Below, piece by piece: positions 55,569-61,222 of a stretch of 64,000 nucleotides of DNA. Source of the stretch: Archangium lipolyticum (lineage in GTDB: Bacteria; Myxococcota; Myxococcia; Myxococcales; Myxococcaceae); contig NZ_JANKBZ010000017.1 of assembly GCF_024623785.1 (NCBI RefSeq), positions 1 through 64,000 of the forward strand, written 5' to 3'. The notes beneath the pieces are model-generated. The model did no database searches, had not been told where the DNA came from, and worked only from the letters and a program-made list of their open reading frames with translations. The position numbers and the translations under genes are program-made. Numbering within the stretch: the stretch's first letter is position 1; every line of letters starts with the position of its first letter.

Positions 55569-58500
55569 ATGGCGGAAAGCACGATCGACAGCATCTGCCC
55601 CGAGGAGAACTTCGTGCGGGAAGCCGCCTCGGGACGGTTTCCGGAGGCGGAGGTCGCGCGGCTCATCGCGCATGCGGAGAAGTGCCCCGCGTGCGGCCCG
55701 TTGCTGGTGCGCAGTGGGACCTCGACCGCCTTCTCGGCGGAGGTCCCCACCAACGTGGTGCCAGCGCCGGCGCCGCTGCCCGAGAGCCCTCCGCGGGAGG
55801 TGCTCCCGCGCGGCGCGCTGGTGGGACGCTACATGGTGCTGGAGAAGCTGGGGTCCGGCGGCATGGGCGTGGTGTACGCCGCGTATGACCCCGAGCTGGA
55901 CCGCAAGCTCGCCCTCAAGCTGCTCCATGTGGAGTCGGACCAGGTGGAGAAGGGTGGCGGACAGGCCCGGCTGTTGCGCGAGGCGCAGGCCCTGGCGCGC
56001 CTGGCCCACCCGCACGTCATCTCCATCTACGACGTGGGGACGTGGGAGGAGCGTGTCTTCATCGCGATGGAGCTGGTGGAGGGGCCCTCGCTGCGCGACT
56101 GGCTGAAGCAGGGGCCGCGTCCCTGGCGCGAGGTGGTGGAGGTCTTCGTCTCGGCCGGACGGGGGCTCGAGGCGGCGCACGCGGCGGGCCTGGTGCACCG
56201 CGACTTCAAGCCGGACAACGTCCTGCTGGGCAAGGATGGGCGGGTGAGGGTGCTGGACTTCGGTCTGGCCCGCCAGGCCTCGGCCTCCGACGAGCCCCTG
56301 CCTCCACAAGGCGAGCAGCCCTGGCCCGAGCGGGTCAATTCACCGCTGGACACGCCCCTGACGCGGGTGGGCCTGGTCATCGGCACGCCGGCCTACATGG
56401 CGCCGGAGCTGTACGGCGGAGGCATCCTCGACGCGCGGGCGGACCAGTTCAGCTACTGCGTGGCCCTCTACGAGGCGCTCTACGGTGAGCGGCCCTTCGG
56501 GCGTATCCCGGGCCCGCCCTCCACCTGGCGCACTCCGGAGCCTCCCCGGGACGGACGGGTGCCCGCCAGTGTGCGGCGCATCGTGCTGCGCGGGCTCGAG
56601 CAGGATCCCTCGCGGCGCTTCCCCTCCATGACGGAGCTGCTCGAGGCGCTCGGCCGCACCCTGCCGTCGCGCCAGCGGCACTGGCTGGTGGCCGCCGCCA
56701 GCCTCCTGTTGCTCTCCCTCGCCGTGGGGCTGCCCCTCCAGCAGCGGGCCCAGGCCGAGCCGCCCTGCAGGGGTGCCGCCCGTCGCCTCGAGGGGCTGTG
56801 GGATGGGCCCCGTCAGGCGGCGCTCGCCCAGGTCTTCCACGCCACCGGCAAGCCCAACGCGGACGAGTCCTGGACGCGCACGGCGCGGGTGCTGGACACC
56901 TACGCGCAGGGCTGGGTGTCCATGCACACCGAGGCCTGCGAGGCCACGCGGATCCGCGGCGAGCAGTCCGACGAGGTGCTCTCGCTGCGCATGGCCTGTC
57001 TGGAGCGGCGGCGGCAGTCGCTCCAGGCCCTCGTGGACGTCTACGCCCACGCCGAGCCGGCGCTGGTGGACCAGGCGGCCCGGGCGGCCCACTCGCTGCC
57101 TCCCCTGGACGGGTGCGCCAACGTGGAGGCGCTGCGTGCCACCGTCCGGCCACCGGAGGATCCGGCCACCCTGGAGAAGGTGGAGGGCCTGCGGATCCGC
57201 TTCGCCCAGGCCCGGGCCCTCTTCGACAGCGGCCAGTTCAAGCCCGCCCTGGAGCGCATCCGGGCCCTCGCCCAGGAGACGGAGGCCCTGCACTACCGTC
57301 CGTTGGAGGCCGAGGTGCTCGAGCTGCGTGGCGCCCTGGAGGAGAAGGCGGGGGACTTCCCGGCGTCCGAGGCCTCGCTCCGGCGGGCGGTGTTGGCGGC
57401 GGAGGCGGGTGGGCACGACGAGGTCATCGCCTCGGCCTCCGCCCGACTGGTGCGCTCGGGGATGCTCCAGGCCCGGTTCGAGTCCGGTCACGAATGGGCC
57501 GAGCACACCCGCGCGGTGCTGGAGCGGATGGGAGGGGATGACCGCATCGAGGCCTTCGTCCTCAACGCGCTGGGGGCCATCTACCTGCGCCAGGACCAGA
57601 TGGACGAGTCCCTGGCGCACTTCCGCCGGGTGGTGGAGCTGCGCCAGAAGGTGTATCCGCCCGAGCACCCGGAGGTGGCGGCGGCCTACAACAACCTGGG
57701 GGCGGCGCTCACCAAGCTGGGCCGGTTCGAGGAGGCGCGCCAACAGCTCGCCCAGGCGCAGTCCATCTACGAGAAGGCCCTGGGACCCACGCATCCGGAG
57801 ACGGGCAACGCGCTGCACAACCTGGGACGCATGTCGCAGAACCTCGGGGATGACGCGGCGGCCCTGCGCTACTTCCAGGGCGCCCTGGTGGCGCGCGAGG
57901 CCGGGCTGGGTCCGGAGCACCCGGAGGTGGGCGCGTCGTTGGGCTCCATGGGCATCAGCTACTGCGCCCTGCGCCAGTACACGGAGTGCCTCGCCGTCGC
58001 CGAGCGGAGTCTGGCCATCCGGACGAAGGCCTTCGGGTCCATGCACCTGGAGCTTCCGACCAGCCTGTCGAGGATGGGGGAGGCCCTGGTGGGACTGGGC
58101 AGGAATGCCGAGGCGCTGGAGCGCTTCCAGCAGGCGCTGCGGGTGGCGGAGGGCATCAAGACGCCCTATCCCCCCGACATCATCACCGCGTTGGTCAATC
58201 TGGCCGAGGCCCTGCGGGCGCGGGGCAAGCGCGCGGAGGCGCTGTCCCATCTCCAGCGCGCCCTCGCCCTGGCGGAGAAGGAGCTGGGACGGGAATCCTC
58301 CGACACTGCTTTCGCGCTGAATGCGTTGGCCGACTGGTACCTGGAAGGCGGGCAGCACCGGCAGGCGCTGGAGCACTACCAGCGGGCCCTGGCCATTCGG
58401 GAGAAGACGAGCCCGCCGAAGCACCCGGACCTGTTCGGGCTGCTGGCCGGCATCGGGAGGAGCCAGATGGCGCTCAACGCGCCGGCCCAGGCGGTGGCCC

Positions 58501-58721
58501 CCCTGGAGCGGGCGCTGGAGCTCACGGACTCTCCGCGCATCGGCCCGGAGGCGGCGGCGGAGCTGCGGTTCCTCCTGGCCCAGGCCCTCTGGGACTCCGG
58601 GGGAGGCAAGGAGAGCGCGCGGGAGCTGGCCTCGCGGGCGCTCGAGGCGCTCCGGCAGGCGAAGCAGGAGACGGAGGCCTCGCGGGTGACGGCCTGGCTG
58701 GAATCTCACGGGGGCCGCTAG
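55569..58721 (+). CDS. Ser/Thr kinase with TPR sensor region
   Basis: A 1050-aa membrane-spanning Hanks kinase of the type frequent in myxobacteria. The N-terminus has a short zinc-site-like HAEKCPACGPLL (H-x3-C-x2-C) as in anti-sigma proteins. The kinase domain (about 85-365) has GSGGMGVVY, Lys in ALKLL, HRDFKPDN (near 210) and DFGLAR. One membrane helix (about 374-393) separates it from a C-terminal region of ~650 residues with at least eight tetratricopeptide units between ~560 and 1010 (e.g. AAYNNLGAALTKLGRFEEARQ, EHYQRALAIREK). TPRs probably bind a protein partner in the periplasm. The gene is monocistronic. Confidence 0.93.
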   Translation: MAESTIDSICPEENFVREAASGRFPEAEVARLIAHAEKCPACGPLLVRSGTSTAFSAEVPTNVVPAPAPLPESPPREVLPRGALVGRYMVLEKLGSGGMGVVYAAYDPELDRKLALKLLHVESDQVEKGGGQARLLREAQALARLAHPHVISIYDVGTWEERVFIAMELVEGPSLRDWLKQGPRPWREVVEVFVSAGRGLEAAHAAGLVHRDFKPDNVLLGKDGRVRVLDFGLARQASASDEPLPPQGEQPWPERVNSPLDTPLTRVGLVIGTPAYMAPELYGGGILDARADQFSYCVALYEALYGERPFGRIPGPPSTWRTPEPPRDGRVPASVRRIVLRGLEQDPSRRFPSMTELLEALGRTLPSRQRHWLVAAASLLLLSLAVGLPLQQRAQAEPPCRGAARRLEGLWDGPRQAALAQVFHATGKPNADESWTRTARVLDTYAQGWVSMHTEACEATRIRGEQSDEVLSLRMACLERRRQSLQALVDVYAHAEPALVDQAARAAHSLPPLDGCANVEALRATVRPPEDPATLEKVEGLRIRFAQARALFDSGQFKPALERIRALAQETEALHYRPLEAEVLELRGALEEKAGDFPASEASLRRAVLAAEAGGHDEVIASASARLVRSGMLQARFESGHEWAEHTRAVLERMGGDDRIEAFVLNALGAIYLRQDQMDESLAHFRRVVELRQKVYPPEHPEVAAAYNNLGAALTKLGRFEEARQQLAQAQSIYEKALGPTHPETGNALHNLGRMSQNLGDDAAALRYFQGALVAREAGLGPEHPEVGASLGSMGISYCALRQYTECLAVAERSLAIRTKAFGSMHLELPTSLSRMGEALVGLGRNAEALERFQQALRVAEGIKTPYPPDIITALVNLAEALRARGKRAEALSHLQRALALAEKELGRESSDTAFALNALADWYLEGGQHRQALEHYQRALAIREKTSPPKHPDLFGLLAGIGRSQMALNAPAQAVAPLERALELTDSPRIGPEAAAELRFLLAQALWDSGGGKESARELASRALEALRQAKQETEASRVTAWLESHGGR

Positions 58722-58830: not shown

Positions 58831-58968
58831 ATGAGCCAGGCAGCCGAAGTGATCAATCTCGAAGAGTTCCGGAAGCGGCGTGAGCCCAGGCCTTCGTCCA
58901 CTCGGTCGCCCGCCCCCATGAGCCTCTGGACGCCGGTGTGGGTGTGGGTCATGGTCTGGCCTACGTGA
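58831..58968 (+). CDS. 45-aa tryptophan/valine-rich microprotein
   Basis: A 45-aa ORF starting 31 bases after the operator pair. The N-terminal half reads SQAAEVINLEEFRKRREPR, a V-I-x-L/F-E-x-F/Y-R-x-R-R pattern that I recall from other short myxobacterial ORFs; the C-terminal half ends SLWTPVWVWVMVWPT, strongly hydrophobic with four tryptophans, so it could associate with the membrane. Its stop overlaps a possible GTG start (58965) of the regulator gene. It is the first gene after the promoter, so it would be co-regulated with the XRE-cupin protein. Function unknown. Confidence 0.5.
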   Translation: MSQAAEVINLEEFRKRREPRPSSTRSPAPMSLWTPVWVWVMVWPT

Positions 58969-59021
58969 AATCGGTCCGGGAAAATACGCCTGCTGGAAAG
59001 CAGGAAGAAGAAGAGGCACCC

Positions 59022-59705
59022 GTGTCCGCGAAGGGCCGGGGAAAGAAGCGGGAGCAGGCCGGGAAGACGGAGGCGCCGCCGCCCGAGGTCCCTTCCTCCG
59101 AGGAGGAGTGGGCCTATGAGGTGGCGCACGCCGAGTCCTCGACGGATCTGGCGCCCATCGTTGGCCGCAACCTGCGCCGCCTGCGCACCCACCGGGGTCT
59201 GTCCCTGGAGCGGCTCGCCAAGGCATCCGGGGTGAGCCGCGCCATGCTCGGGCAGATCGAGCTGGGGCAGAGCGCGCCCACCATCAACGTCATCTGGAAG
59301 ATCGCCCGGGCGCTGGGCATCCCCTTCTCGGCGTTGATCAGCACCACGGCCCAGAGCGGCACCCGGTTGATGAGGGCCTCGCAGGCCAAGCGGCTGGCCT
59401 CGCATGACGGGAGCTTCAGCTCGCGGGCGCTCTTCCCGTTCGACGAGCCCCGGCGTGTGGAGTTCTACGAGCTGCGCCTGGCGGCGCACGCGGTGGAGCA
59501 GGCGGACGCGCACCCGCCGGGGACGCTGGAGAACCTGGTGGTGACGATGGGGACGGTGGAGATCGACCGGGGCGACGAGCACCATGTGCTGGCCGCGGGA
59601 GACGCCATCGTGTTCGAGGCGGACGTGCCGCACGTCTACCGCAACCCGGGCAACGTGGACGCGGTGATGTACCTGGTGATGACGTACGCGGAGACGGTCG
59701 GCTAG
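59022..59705 (+). CDS. XRE-family regulator with cupin domain
   Basis: A 227-aa transcription regulator. After a charged, lysine/glutamate-rich leader, residues ~46-106 form an HTH-XRE domain (NLRRLRTHRGLSLERLAKASGVS), and residues ~150-225 a cupin_2 fold (ENLVVTMGTVEIDRGDEHHVLAAGDAIVFEADVPHVYRN), which would bind a small effector. This class often controls amino-acid, polyamine or osmolyte genes. The GTG at 59022 has GAGG seven bases upstream; GTG 58965, overlapping the microprotein stop, gives a longer form. The palindromes in its own promoter suggest autorepression. The gene ends at a strong bidirectional terminator. Confidence 0.88.
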   Translation: MSAKGRGKKREQAGKTEAPPPEVPSSEEEWAYEVAHAESSTDLAPIVGRNLRRLRTHRGLSLERLAKASGVSRAMLGQIELGQSAPTINVIWKIARALGIPFSALISTTAQSGTRLMRASQAKRLASHDGSFSSRALFPFDEPRRVEFYELRLAAHAVEQADAHPPGTLENLVVTMGTVEIDRGDEHHVLAAGDAIVFEADVPHVYRNPGNVDAVMYLVMTYAETVG

Positions 59706-59733: not shown

Positions 59734-59770
59734 AGAGCCGGCGGGCCCCTGGGGCACTCTCGCCGGCTCT
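59734..59770. terminator. Bidirectional terminator
   Basis: AGAGCCGGCG and CGCCGGCTCT are perfect 10-bp arms with a 17-base spacer, between the convergent regulator gene and methionine-rich gene, followed by CGCGTTT. Confidence 0.7.
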
Positions 59771-59797
59771 CGCGTTTCCGGCCCTACGGGCCCGGTG

Positions 59798-60268
59798 CTA
59801 CTTCGCGGTGCACATCATCATGGGCATGCCGTTGCACATCATCATCATCGGCATCCCCATGGCCATCATGGAGTTCATCGCGTCGCAGCAGTCCTTCATC
59901 ATCTCCATCTGACCCGCGTCCATGGGCATCATCCGGCACATCATGCCGTCCTTGCCCATTTCACAGGTCATCCGGGCCATCATCGGCATGCGCATCATCA
60001 TGGGCATCATCATGGGCATGCCACCCATCATGGGGTTCATGCCCATCATGGGGTTCATACCGCCCATCATGGGCATGGGCATCATGCCGCCCATCATCGG
60101 GTTCATGCCGCCCATCATGGGCATGGGCATGGGCATCATGCCGCCCATCATCGGGTTCATGCCCATCATGGGGTTCATGCCGCCCATCATGGGCATGGGC
60201 ATCATGCCGCCCATCATCGGGTTCATTCCGGACTGCATCGGCATGGGCATCTGAGTGGCAGGGGTCAT
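59798..60268 (-). CDS. Methionine-repeat protein (about 45 % Met)
   Basis: A 156-aa protein with about 71 methionines. GAGG seven bases before ATG 60268 supports the frame. Residues ~15-95 are tandem units MNPMMGGMMPMPMMGG (16-18 aa, three copies) and MNPMMG (6-7 aa, three copies). The C-terminal ~60 residues lose the repeat but keep MM clusters and add six cysteines (TC, MC, DCC, MMC, MMC), with the segment KDCCDAMNSMMAMGMP. No signal peptide or charged patches are seen. Dense M-x-M and C-x-x-C-less cysteines suggest soft-metal (copper(I) or silver) binding or an oxidation sponge; both are inference. No copper pump is nearby. I know no such family. Confidence 0.75.
   Translation of the reverse strand: MTPATQMPMPMQSGMNPMMGGMMPMPMMGGMNPMMGMNPMMGGMMPMPMPMMGGMNPMMGGMMPMPMMGGMNPMMGMNPMMGGMPMMMPMMMRMPMMARMTCEMGKDGMMCRMMPMDAGQMEMMKDCCDAMNSMMAMGMPMMMMCNGMPMMMCTAK
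60031..60229 (-). repeat. In-frame tandem repeats of the Met-rich gene
   Basis: Imperfect tandem copies of a ~48-54-base unit (GGGTTCAT...CCGCCCATCAT...GGGCATGGGCATCAT on the plus strand) interleaved with an 18-base unit, all multiples of three. Copy number is likely to vary by slippage without breaking the frame. Confidence 0.85.
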
Positions 60269-60499
60269 GGTTCGGCCTCGTGTGGGTGTGACTGGGAGTG
60301 TTGCTCGGGCCAGGGACGGTAGAGAGGGGCGCCTCCCCCGACAACGCGGGGGTGTCTTTTCCTCCGGTGAAACGGAGGTGTCGCTCCAGGCGGCGGAGAG
60401 GTGTGTCCGGCAGCGAGCAGGGCCTGGGGCGGATGTGCACTCCCGGGCAGGGGGCTGCCCCCGAGGAGGGCGCCGTGGATTTGCGCTAGAACCTCGCAC

Positions 60500-61222
60500 A
60501 TGAGCGCAGATCCGCGAGAGGAAGGGCCGGGCTCCTTCCCACCCACGCGTTGGACTCTCATCCGCTCGGCGAAGGCTTCCCCGGAGGCCCGTCGCGCGGC
60601 GCTGGAGTCGCTGCTGCGCACCTATTGGCGCCCGCTCTACGTCTTCATGCGCCGCCAGGGGTTGGACTCGGAGGCCGCGCGCGACGCCGTGCAGGATCTG
60701 CTCGTGCGGCTGCTGGAGCACGAGTTCCTCGAGCGGCTGAATCCCGAGAAGGGCCGGCTGCGCGGCTATCTGCTGACGGCGGCCCGCAACCACCTCATCC
60801 ACCGGCACGAGCGCGAGAGCGCGGCCCGGCGTGGGGGCGGGGTGGCATCGTTGCCGCTGGACTTCGAGCTGGCGGAGCGGATCGCCTCCGAGGAAGGGCA
60901 GGGACCGGACGAGGCCTTCGAGCGGGAGTGGGCGGCGAGTGTGATGGAGCGCGCGCTGGAGCGGCTGAAGTCCGAGTACGACAGCGGTGCGCGCAGCGGC
61001 CCGTTCGCCCTGGTGCTCCAGTTCTTCCGTCCGGGCGAGCCGCCGAGCTACCGGGAGGCGGCGGCGGCGTACGGCATGTCGCTGCCGCAGCTCAAGACGT
61101 TCCTGCACCGGGCGCGGGTGCGCTACCGCGAGCTGGTGCGCGAGGAGGTGACGGACACGGTGGGTGCACCCGAGGAGGCGGAGGCCGAGCTGGCGGAGCT
61201 GCTGCGGGTGCTGAAGCGATGA
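60500..61222 (+). CDS. ECF-like RNA polymerase sigma factor
   Basis: A 240-aa sigma-70-family factor of ECF type. Region 2 is near residues 30-95 (LLRTYWRPLYVFMRRQGLDSE ... DAVQDLLVRLLE), preceded by FPPTRWTLI, typical of an ECF group often paired with Ser/Thr kinases. Region 4 is near 175-225 (PPSYREAAAAYGMSLPQLKTFLHRARVRYRELV). It would redirect RNA polymerase to a special promoter set. The kinase gene starts in its stop codon (ATGA), so the kinase probably controls the sigma factor in place of an anti-sigma protein. The region upstream (60269-60499) is non-coding. Confidence 0.9.
   Translation: MSADPREEGPGSFPPTRWTLIRSAKASPEARRAALESLLRTYWRPLYVFMRRQGLDSEAARDAVQDLLVRLLEHEFLERLNPEKGRLRGYLLTAARNHLIHRHERESAARRGGGVASLPLDFELAERIASEEGQGPDEAFEREWAASVMERALERLKSEYDSGARSGPFALVLQFFRPGEPPSYREAAAAYGMSLPQLKTFLHRARVRYRELVREEVTDTVGAPEEAEAELAELLRVLKR

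Follow-up and report, generated by a model that had tools for sequence, protein, structure and literature searches.

The window analysed here is a stretch of 64,000 nucleotides from Archangium lipolyticum (contig NZ_JANKBZ010000017.1, positions 1 to 64,000), in which a gene for a methionine-rich protein and a gene for a transcriptional regulator converge on a short intergenic stem. The features of the locus are as follows.

58938..59705, plus strand: gene for an XRE-cupin transcriptional regulator, SutR-like, the convergent partner gene (HTH_3 and Cupin_2 domains).
59734..59770, minus strand: perfect 10-bp stem between the two convergent genes, a possible shared terminator without a T-run.
59798..60268, minus strand: gene for the Met-rich protein (start ATG, stop TAG, 156 aa), with relatives.
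59801..60007, minus strand: conserved C-terminal domain of about 65-69 aa, predicted beta-beta-alpha-beta-beta (profile, alignment and models).
59987..60250, minus strand: tandem-repeat region, the variable N-terminal part, with MNPMMGG / MMPMPMMGG units (repeat scan and lengths of relatives).
60316..60344, minus strand: putative promoter, TTGTCG - 17 nt - TACCGT, recognized by eye and kept in genus relatives.
60358..60378, minus strand: candidate operator, CCTCCG-N6-CGGAGG followed by AAA, conserved in other Myxococcota and in Alphaproteobacteria.
60491-61222, plus strand: ECF-type sigma factor gene, divergent from the Met-rich gene, with a Ser/Thr kinase gene downstream of it.

The Met-rich protein consists of 156 aa, among them 71 Met (45.5%), 22 Pro, 22 Gly, 8 Asn and 6 Cys. 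An earlier sequence-only reading had described the ORF at this position on the minus strand (60268..59798), with about 71 Met and six Cys and with tandem repeats, and all of this is borne out by the translated ORF and by a repeat scan, which found tandem repeats of 120, 66 and 54 bp covering 59987-60250. The ribosome site it had pointed to is also present, as a GAGG 5' of the ATG that is kept in relatives. Its claim that the gene is real had been tied in advance to conservation of the minus-strand frame in relatives, and when this was examined the frame proved to be conserved: the length of the ORF differs among relatives by whole codons, and the frame is open in every case. Strong support comes also from the GC3 of the Met-rich frame, which is 0.95 (0.91 without the ATG codons), and from substitutions in the C-terminal domain, which fall mostly at third positions (85/91/274 at positions 1/2/3 of non-ATG codons). 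The minus-strand ORF at 60268-59798 is a real, conserved gene.

Both strands carry long open frames at this site, because CAT and ATG mirror each other, and the mirror frame is a His-rich ORF of 175 aa with 71 CAT (His) codons (59795-60322, plus strand). This ORF was rejected as a gene on its GC3 of 0.43, against 0.95 for the Met-rich frame. The paired open frames might be taken to mean that there is no Met-rich gene at all, only an ATG/CAT repeat left open by chance, or that the His-rich ORF is the coding strand, but such a reading has a negligible probability given the GC3 of the Met-rich frame, a domain conserved over phyla, the third-position excess of substitutions and the conserved linkage to a regulator and to upstream elements.

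The N-terminal repeats vary in number and order among relatives, and with repeat number the length of the protein varies from 152 to 168 aa within the genus, which fits the remark in the sequence-only reading that the DNA repeat is an expected hot spot for slippage. A comparable Met-rich, low-complexity part occurs in the cytosolic yeast protein Pbp1, and that part is held to act as a condensate or as a redox/methionine sensor. By this precedent, low-complexity repeats joined to a small folded domain could make the protein a condensate or sensor that acts on other proteins; we regard this as very improbable, as the N-terminal part has no conserved order or length and the only conserved partner is a transcription regulator (see later). 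Unlike the protein described here, Pbp1 is eukaryotic and the region is part of a large, RNA-linked protein, and we know of no domain in it related to the one found here.

In relatives, the C-terminal domain keeps the pattern 'MTCEM..DGM.CKMMPM....M.MMK.CC.AM..MMAMG.PMMM.CNGMPMM', in which the cysteines C20 and C54 hardly vary. Cysteines have been lost in several family members, one of which (L046) keeps only three. AlphaFold2 gave a beta-beta-alpha-beta-beta arrangement for the domain of the window and the same for both Pseudomonas domains, at moderate confidence only (pLDDT 69 and 63). Neither the whole protein, searched against Pfam at E 10, nor its domain found anything meaningful in Pfam, NCBIfam or PDB sequences, and a fold search with the domain model gave a best E of 1.4 and no match; in these searches, by sequence and by fold alike, the protein matched no catalogued family. 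No description of the family was found in open papers, and it seems to be undescribed.

The codon ATG has no synonym and lies a single step away from codons for Leu, Val, Ile, Thr, Lys and Arg. When the domain of the window was paired with those of Pseudomonas, Alphaproteobacteria and a member of another myxobacterial family of the order, 77-86% of its Met residues were kept (about 80%), against 39-59% of the other residues (about 45%), and only 0-3 Met of the window were replaced by L, I, V or F. For comparison, the adjacent regulator keeps 48-67% of its LIVM residues in the same pairs. Aligning Met-rich sequences may inflate the Met matches somewhat, but the nearly gap-free alignment of the domain limits this effect. 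All members examined have a Met content between 38-49%, and a divergent member (L011), which has shifted further toward I/L/V, keeps 20 of 31 Met. Since Met is kept so far above other residues, Met itself is the selected feature of the protein.

The gene occurs in soil bacteria of widely separated lineages, among them myxobacteria, Magnetospirillum and Pseudomonas. When 59 genomes were searched with the protein, each of the six from the genus and several from the family proved to have a close homologue, and a profile built from the C-terminal domain (A1), which was used to search the family and other genomes, matched in 28 of 96 family genomes. Named carriers are Archangium, Pyxidicoccus, Myxococcus, Hyalangium, Labilithrix, Telmatospirillum, Magnetospirillum and Pseudomonas, and many of the relatives are metagenome bins with short contigs. 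Among Pseudomonas, 63 of 299 species carry the gene, and in nearly all of these a single protein contains the domain twice. This two-domain form (L056, L098-L116) has 15-16 Cys in the members counted, and its promoter and leader are highly conserved. There were two clear carriers among 337 genomes of the class that holds Magnetospirillum, while in a 369-genome sample of the class that holds Pseudomonas the gene was found in the query genome only, so that it is rare in that class outside Pseudomonas. Plasmid and viral collections held no relative of the protein.

Chains of methionine bind Cu(I) and also absorb oxidants. The Met and Cys residues of the domain and repeats might serve as a soft-metal buffer that binds Cu(I) or Ag(I), as the richness in both residues, the 15-16 Cys of the two-domain form and the near-invariance of C20 and C54 would suggest. 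Against this are the loss of Cys in several members (three are left in L046) and the absence of a copper-type neighbour or regulator among the annotated neighbours. Judged by eye, no signal peptide (a charged n-region followed by a hydrophobic stretch) is apparent in MTPATQMPMPMQSGMNPMMGG either, whereas known Met-only copper sites are mostly periplasmic. We take a metal buffer to be an improbable role. The protein is small and probably cytosolic.

Upstream of the gene, CCTCCG-N6-CGGAGG-AAA or a near copy is found about 100-150 nt 5' of the ATG in most members from Myxococcota and Alphaproteobacteria. Of 35 upstream regions, 30 contain the core of the palindrome, GGAGGAAA, compared with 0.6% expected from shuffled sequence, although many of the 35 come from close relatives and the 30 are not independent cases. 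They do extend to Magnetospirillum (L060), to a second alphaproteobacterium (L096) and to a different family of the order (L088, L089). In L046 the palindrome reads CCTCTG-N6-CAGAGG, a symmetric change on both arms, and the copy in the window (60378-60358) is the sole exact one in the 12.6 Mb genome. From its position and conservation, the palindrome is likely to be the operator of the Met-rich gene. It is absent upstream of the regulator gene itself, which gives no evidence of autoregulation through it, and it was not found in the Pseudomonas upstream regions, where a well-conserved block around TCTTGC-17-TAGAAT occurs instead. The putative promoter at 60316..60344 is a weak match to consensus and was not found by a consensus scan.

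At the other end of the gene, the arms of the intergenic stem (59770-59761 paired with 59743-59734) are perfectly complementary over 10 bp, and the stem recurs 3' of the gene in genus relatives. The matched terminator proposed in the sequence-only reading is thus upheld as far as a repeated, perfect stem is concerned, but the T-run is absent, a terminator scan made no call at 59734..59770, and the folding energy around the stem is ordinary (z -0.5).

A profile search of the convergent gene identified an N-terminal HTH_3 (E 3.1e-16) and a C-terminal Cupin_2 domain (E 4.3e-12). The protein is 38% identical to E. coli SutR over 169 aa, and PuuR, the one other XRE-cupin protein compared singly, is a weaker match; SutR is cited for sulfur utilisation in PMC8464067. 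The best PDB sequence match is 1Y9Q (E 4.7e-23), the cupin pocket of which is described as holding D-methionine (PMC7901475). In P. aeruginosa, XRE-cupin proteins mostly control neighbouring genes as local modules (PMC7901475).

The Met-rich gene and the XRE-cupin gene form a two-gene module. Of the 28 family genomes that the profile matched, 25 have the two side by side, and in a 26th (G002) they are 5 kb apart; in the remaining two (G115 and G118) the regulator is on another contig and the Met-rich gene is unlinked. Beyond the family, the two genes are neighbours in other Myxococcota, in every one of the 20 Pseudomonas loci examined, and in Telmatospirillum, Magnetospirillum and one more alphaproteobacterium. 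Among all loci that include flanks, nearly every one has a regulator gene of this kind next to the Met-rich gene. In Labilithrix (L059) no regulator was found within 10 kb of the Met-rich gene, and about 16 family genomes have an orthologous regulator without a detected Met-rich gene. In a tree of the regulators, the Met-linked ones are clustered without making up a single clade. Among the loci compared, we saw no further neighbour that recurs. The divergent sigma factor and Ser/Thr kinase genes were rejected as functional partners, since their linkage is confined to the genus of the window. On the other side, the regulator gene adjoins a large Ser/Thr kinase gene with many TPR repeats (55569-58721, plus strand) that is kept in some genus relatives only. 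The Pseudomonas modules of this type (PauR, PsdR, ErfA) and E. coli SutR have the same two domains and also lie beside their presumed targets; those neighbours are mostly enzymes or transporters, whereas the Met-rich protein encoded next to the regulator here is apparently not an enzyme.

Where related regulators, with about 45-71% identity to that of the window or 49-61% to that of Magnetospirillum, occur without the Met-rich gene, their neighbours repeatedly include sulfur genes. A cysE gene adjoins one in L123 and in L060, the latter also with the Met-rich gene. In one locus (L140:1-3972) the genes for a family-2A encapsulin shell, its cargo cysteine desulfurase and an XRE-cupin regulator all point the same way, and in another (L139:46-1964) a cysteine desulfurase gene lies beside a regulator fused to a rhodanese domain. 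Further neighbours of related regulators are a pair of DsrE genes (L141), a MetN-like ATPase that carries a NIL domain (L149), an ABC system of the taurine type (L150) and an alkanesulfonate-monooxygenase-like enzyme (L152), the MetN-like, tau/ssu-like and alkanesulfonate-monooxygenase-like assignments being profile matches below curated cut-offs. Some related regulators adjoin unrelated genes, such as glyoxylate genes and a nitroreductase gene. In several genomes of Myxococcaceae without the Met-rich gene, the orthologous regulator adjoins rimO, a methylthiotransferase gene (TIGR01125), in L125, L128, L129, L133, L134 and L137. Given the rimO, glyoxylate and nitroreductase neighbours, the link to sulfur is a trend and not a rule.

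Encapsulin scored above cut-off in six family genomes, with a paralogue of the regulator within about 3 kb in three of them; in a fourth, the contigs break between the encapsulin and the paralogue. In some Myxococcaceae, a related regulator gene thus adjoins the family-2A encapsulin and cysteine desulfurase, a system of protein shell and enzyme unlike the Met-rich protein. Both cysE and rhodanese are the most enriched accessories of family-2A encapsulin operons (PMC8346489), and in Synechococcus such a system is induced by sulfate starvation (PMC8049743). Mutual exclusion of the Met-rich gene and the encapsulin was considered (none of the Met-gene genomes searched, against six others above cut-off), and was set aside because the genomes are too few for significance.

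A conserved Met content together with a regulator from a sulfur-linked subfamily makes a reserve or sink for methionine or sulfur the simplest reading, and we put about an even chance on the protein being such a cytosolic store under a sensor of sulfur compounds. Of the three roles offered by the sequence-only reading (soft-metal storage, scavenging of reactive oxygen, a methionine store), linkage to a regulator that is SutR-like and belongs to a sulfur-linked subfamily speaks most for the last, so that its view of function is partly supported; it had not touched on the partner regulator, on the conservation of the domain or on how widely the gene occurs. Under the store reading, the cupin domain of the regulator would sense a sulfur metabolite, methionine or a related compound, and the regulator would control the Met-rich gene through the upstream palindrome. 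With sulfur in excess the protein would be made and sulfur locked up as protein-bound Met, much of it carried by the low-complexity repeat tail, while the small Met/Cys-rich domain would give stability or assembly; later proteolysis would recover the sulfur. We infer the binding of the regulator to the palindrome, its ligand and the direction of control, like the cytosolic location and the storage function, the last of these argued from neighbouring genes, and a sulfur store would have to be an abundant protein. The proposed role, sulfur banked as protein-bound Met, resembles that of the Met-rich seed storage proteins of plants (maize zeins, 2S albumins), but the protein is bacterial, has its own transcription switch next to it, and no family relation to them was found.

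The same side chains could instead serve as a sacrificial scavenger, with hypochlorite or peroxides oxidising the Met at the surface and methionine sulfoxide reductases restoring it, a role that has been proposed for the periplasmic MrpX/BcrX peptides. The very high density of Met, the ECF-type sigma factor gene divergent from the Met-rich gene in the genus of the window, and the overlap, in L146, between an OsmC-like gene and the end of the regulator gene would fit such a role, for which there is a precedent in Azospira and Brucella (PMC8315932). The OsmC-like gene was observed in an alphaproteobacterium (G368, at L146:2033-2572), beside the Met-rich gene. MrpX (Azospira suillum) and BcrX (Brucella) are likewise small, bacterial, Met-rich and encoded beside a dedicated regulator gene; they are MXKDX-repeat peptides under ECF sigma control that work together with msrPQ-type reductases, and the location described for MrpX is the periplasm. 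The protein described here differs in having 45% Met, no export signal apparent by eye, and a SutR-like XRE-cupin regulator as its conserved partner, the sigma factor being confined to one genus. The MXKDX pentapeptide array is absent, with a single MGKDG only and no Pfam match at E 10. No msrP/msrQ-type gene was identified beside the Met-rich gene in the named loci or elsewhere in the 20-kb loci, only part of whose neighbours were profile-searched, and no metal-resistance or methionine sulfoxide reductase gene was identified among the annotated neighbours, many of which were judged just from their opening residues. Scavenging and Cu(I) buffering draw on the same Met chemistry, and what counts against both is the type of regulator, together with the fact that no obvious export signal was seen and that no Msr or copper gene was identified among the partly annotated neighbours; we consider a scavenger unlikely, if less so than a metal buffer.

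That bacteria store carbon, phosphate, nitrogen and iron is well established, but we know of no bacterial protein store for methionine or reduced sulfur. The Met-rich protein may, we suggest with somewhat less confidence than the store reading itself, represent a new class of bacterial sulfur reserve, in which a cytosolic Met-bank protein with its own domain is paired with an XRE-cupin regulator that senses methionine or sulfur, while related bacteria pair the regulator with other sulfur genes, including the desulfurase compartment of family-2A encapsulins. If this is true, one gene and its regulator would provide a short genetic handle on the banking of Met, and in tractable Pseudomonas species. 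Even if the protein is a scavenger or a metal buffer, a conserved family with 38-49% Met and no family model, carried by roughly one in five of the sampled Pseudomonas species, is a large gap in annotation and a test case for the role of Met-rich sequence.
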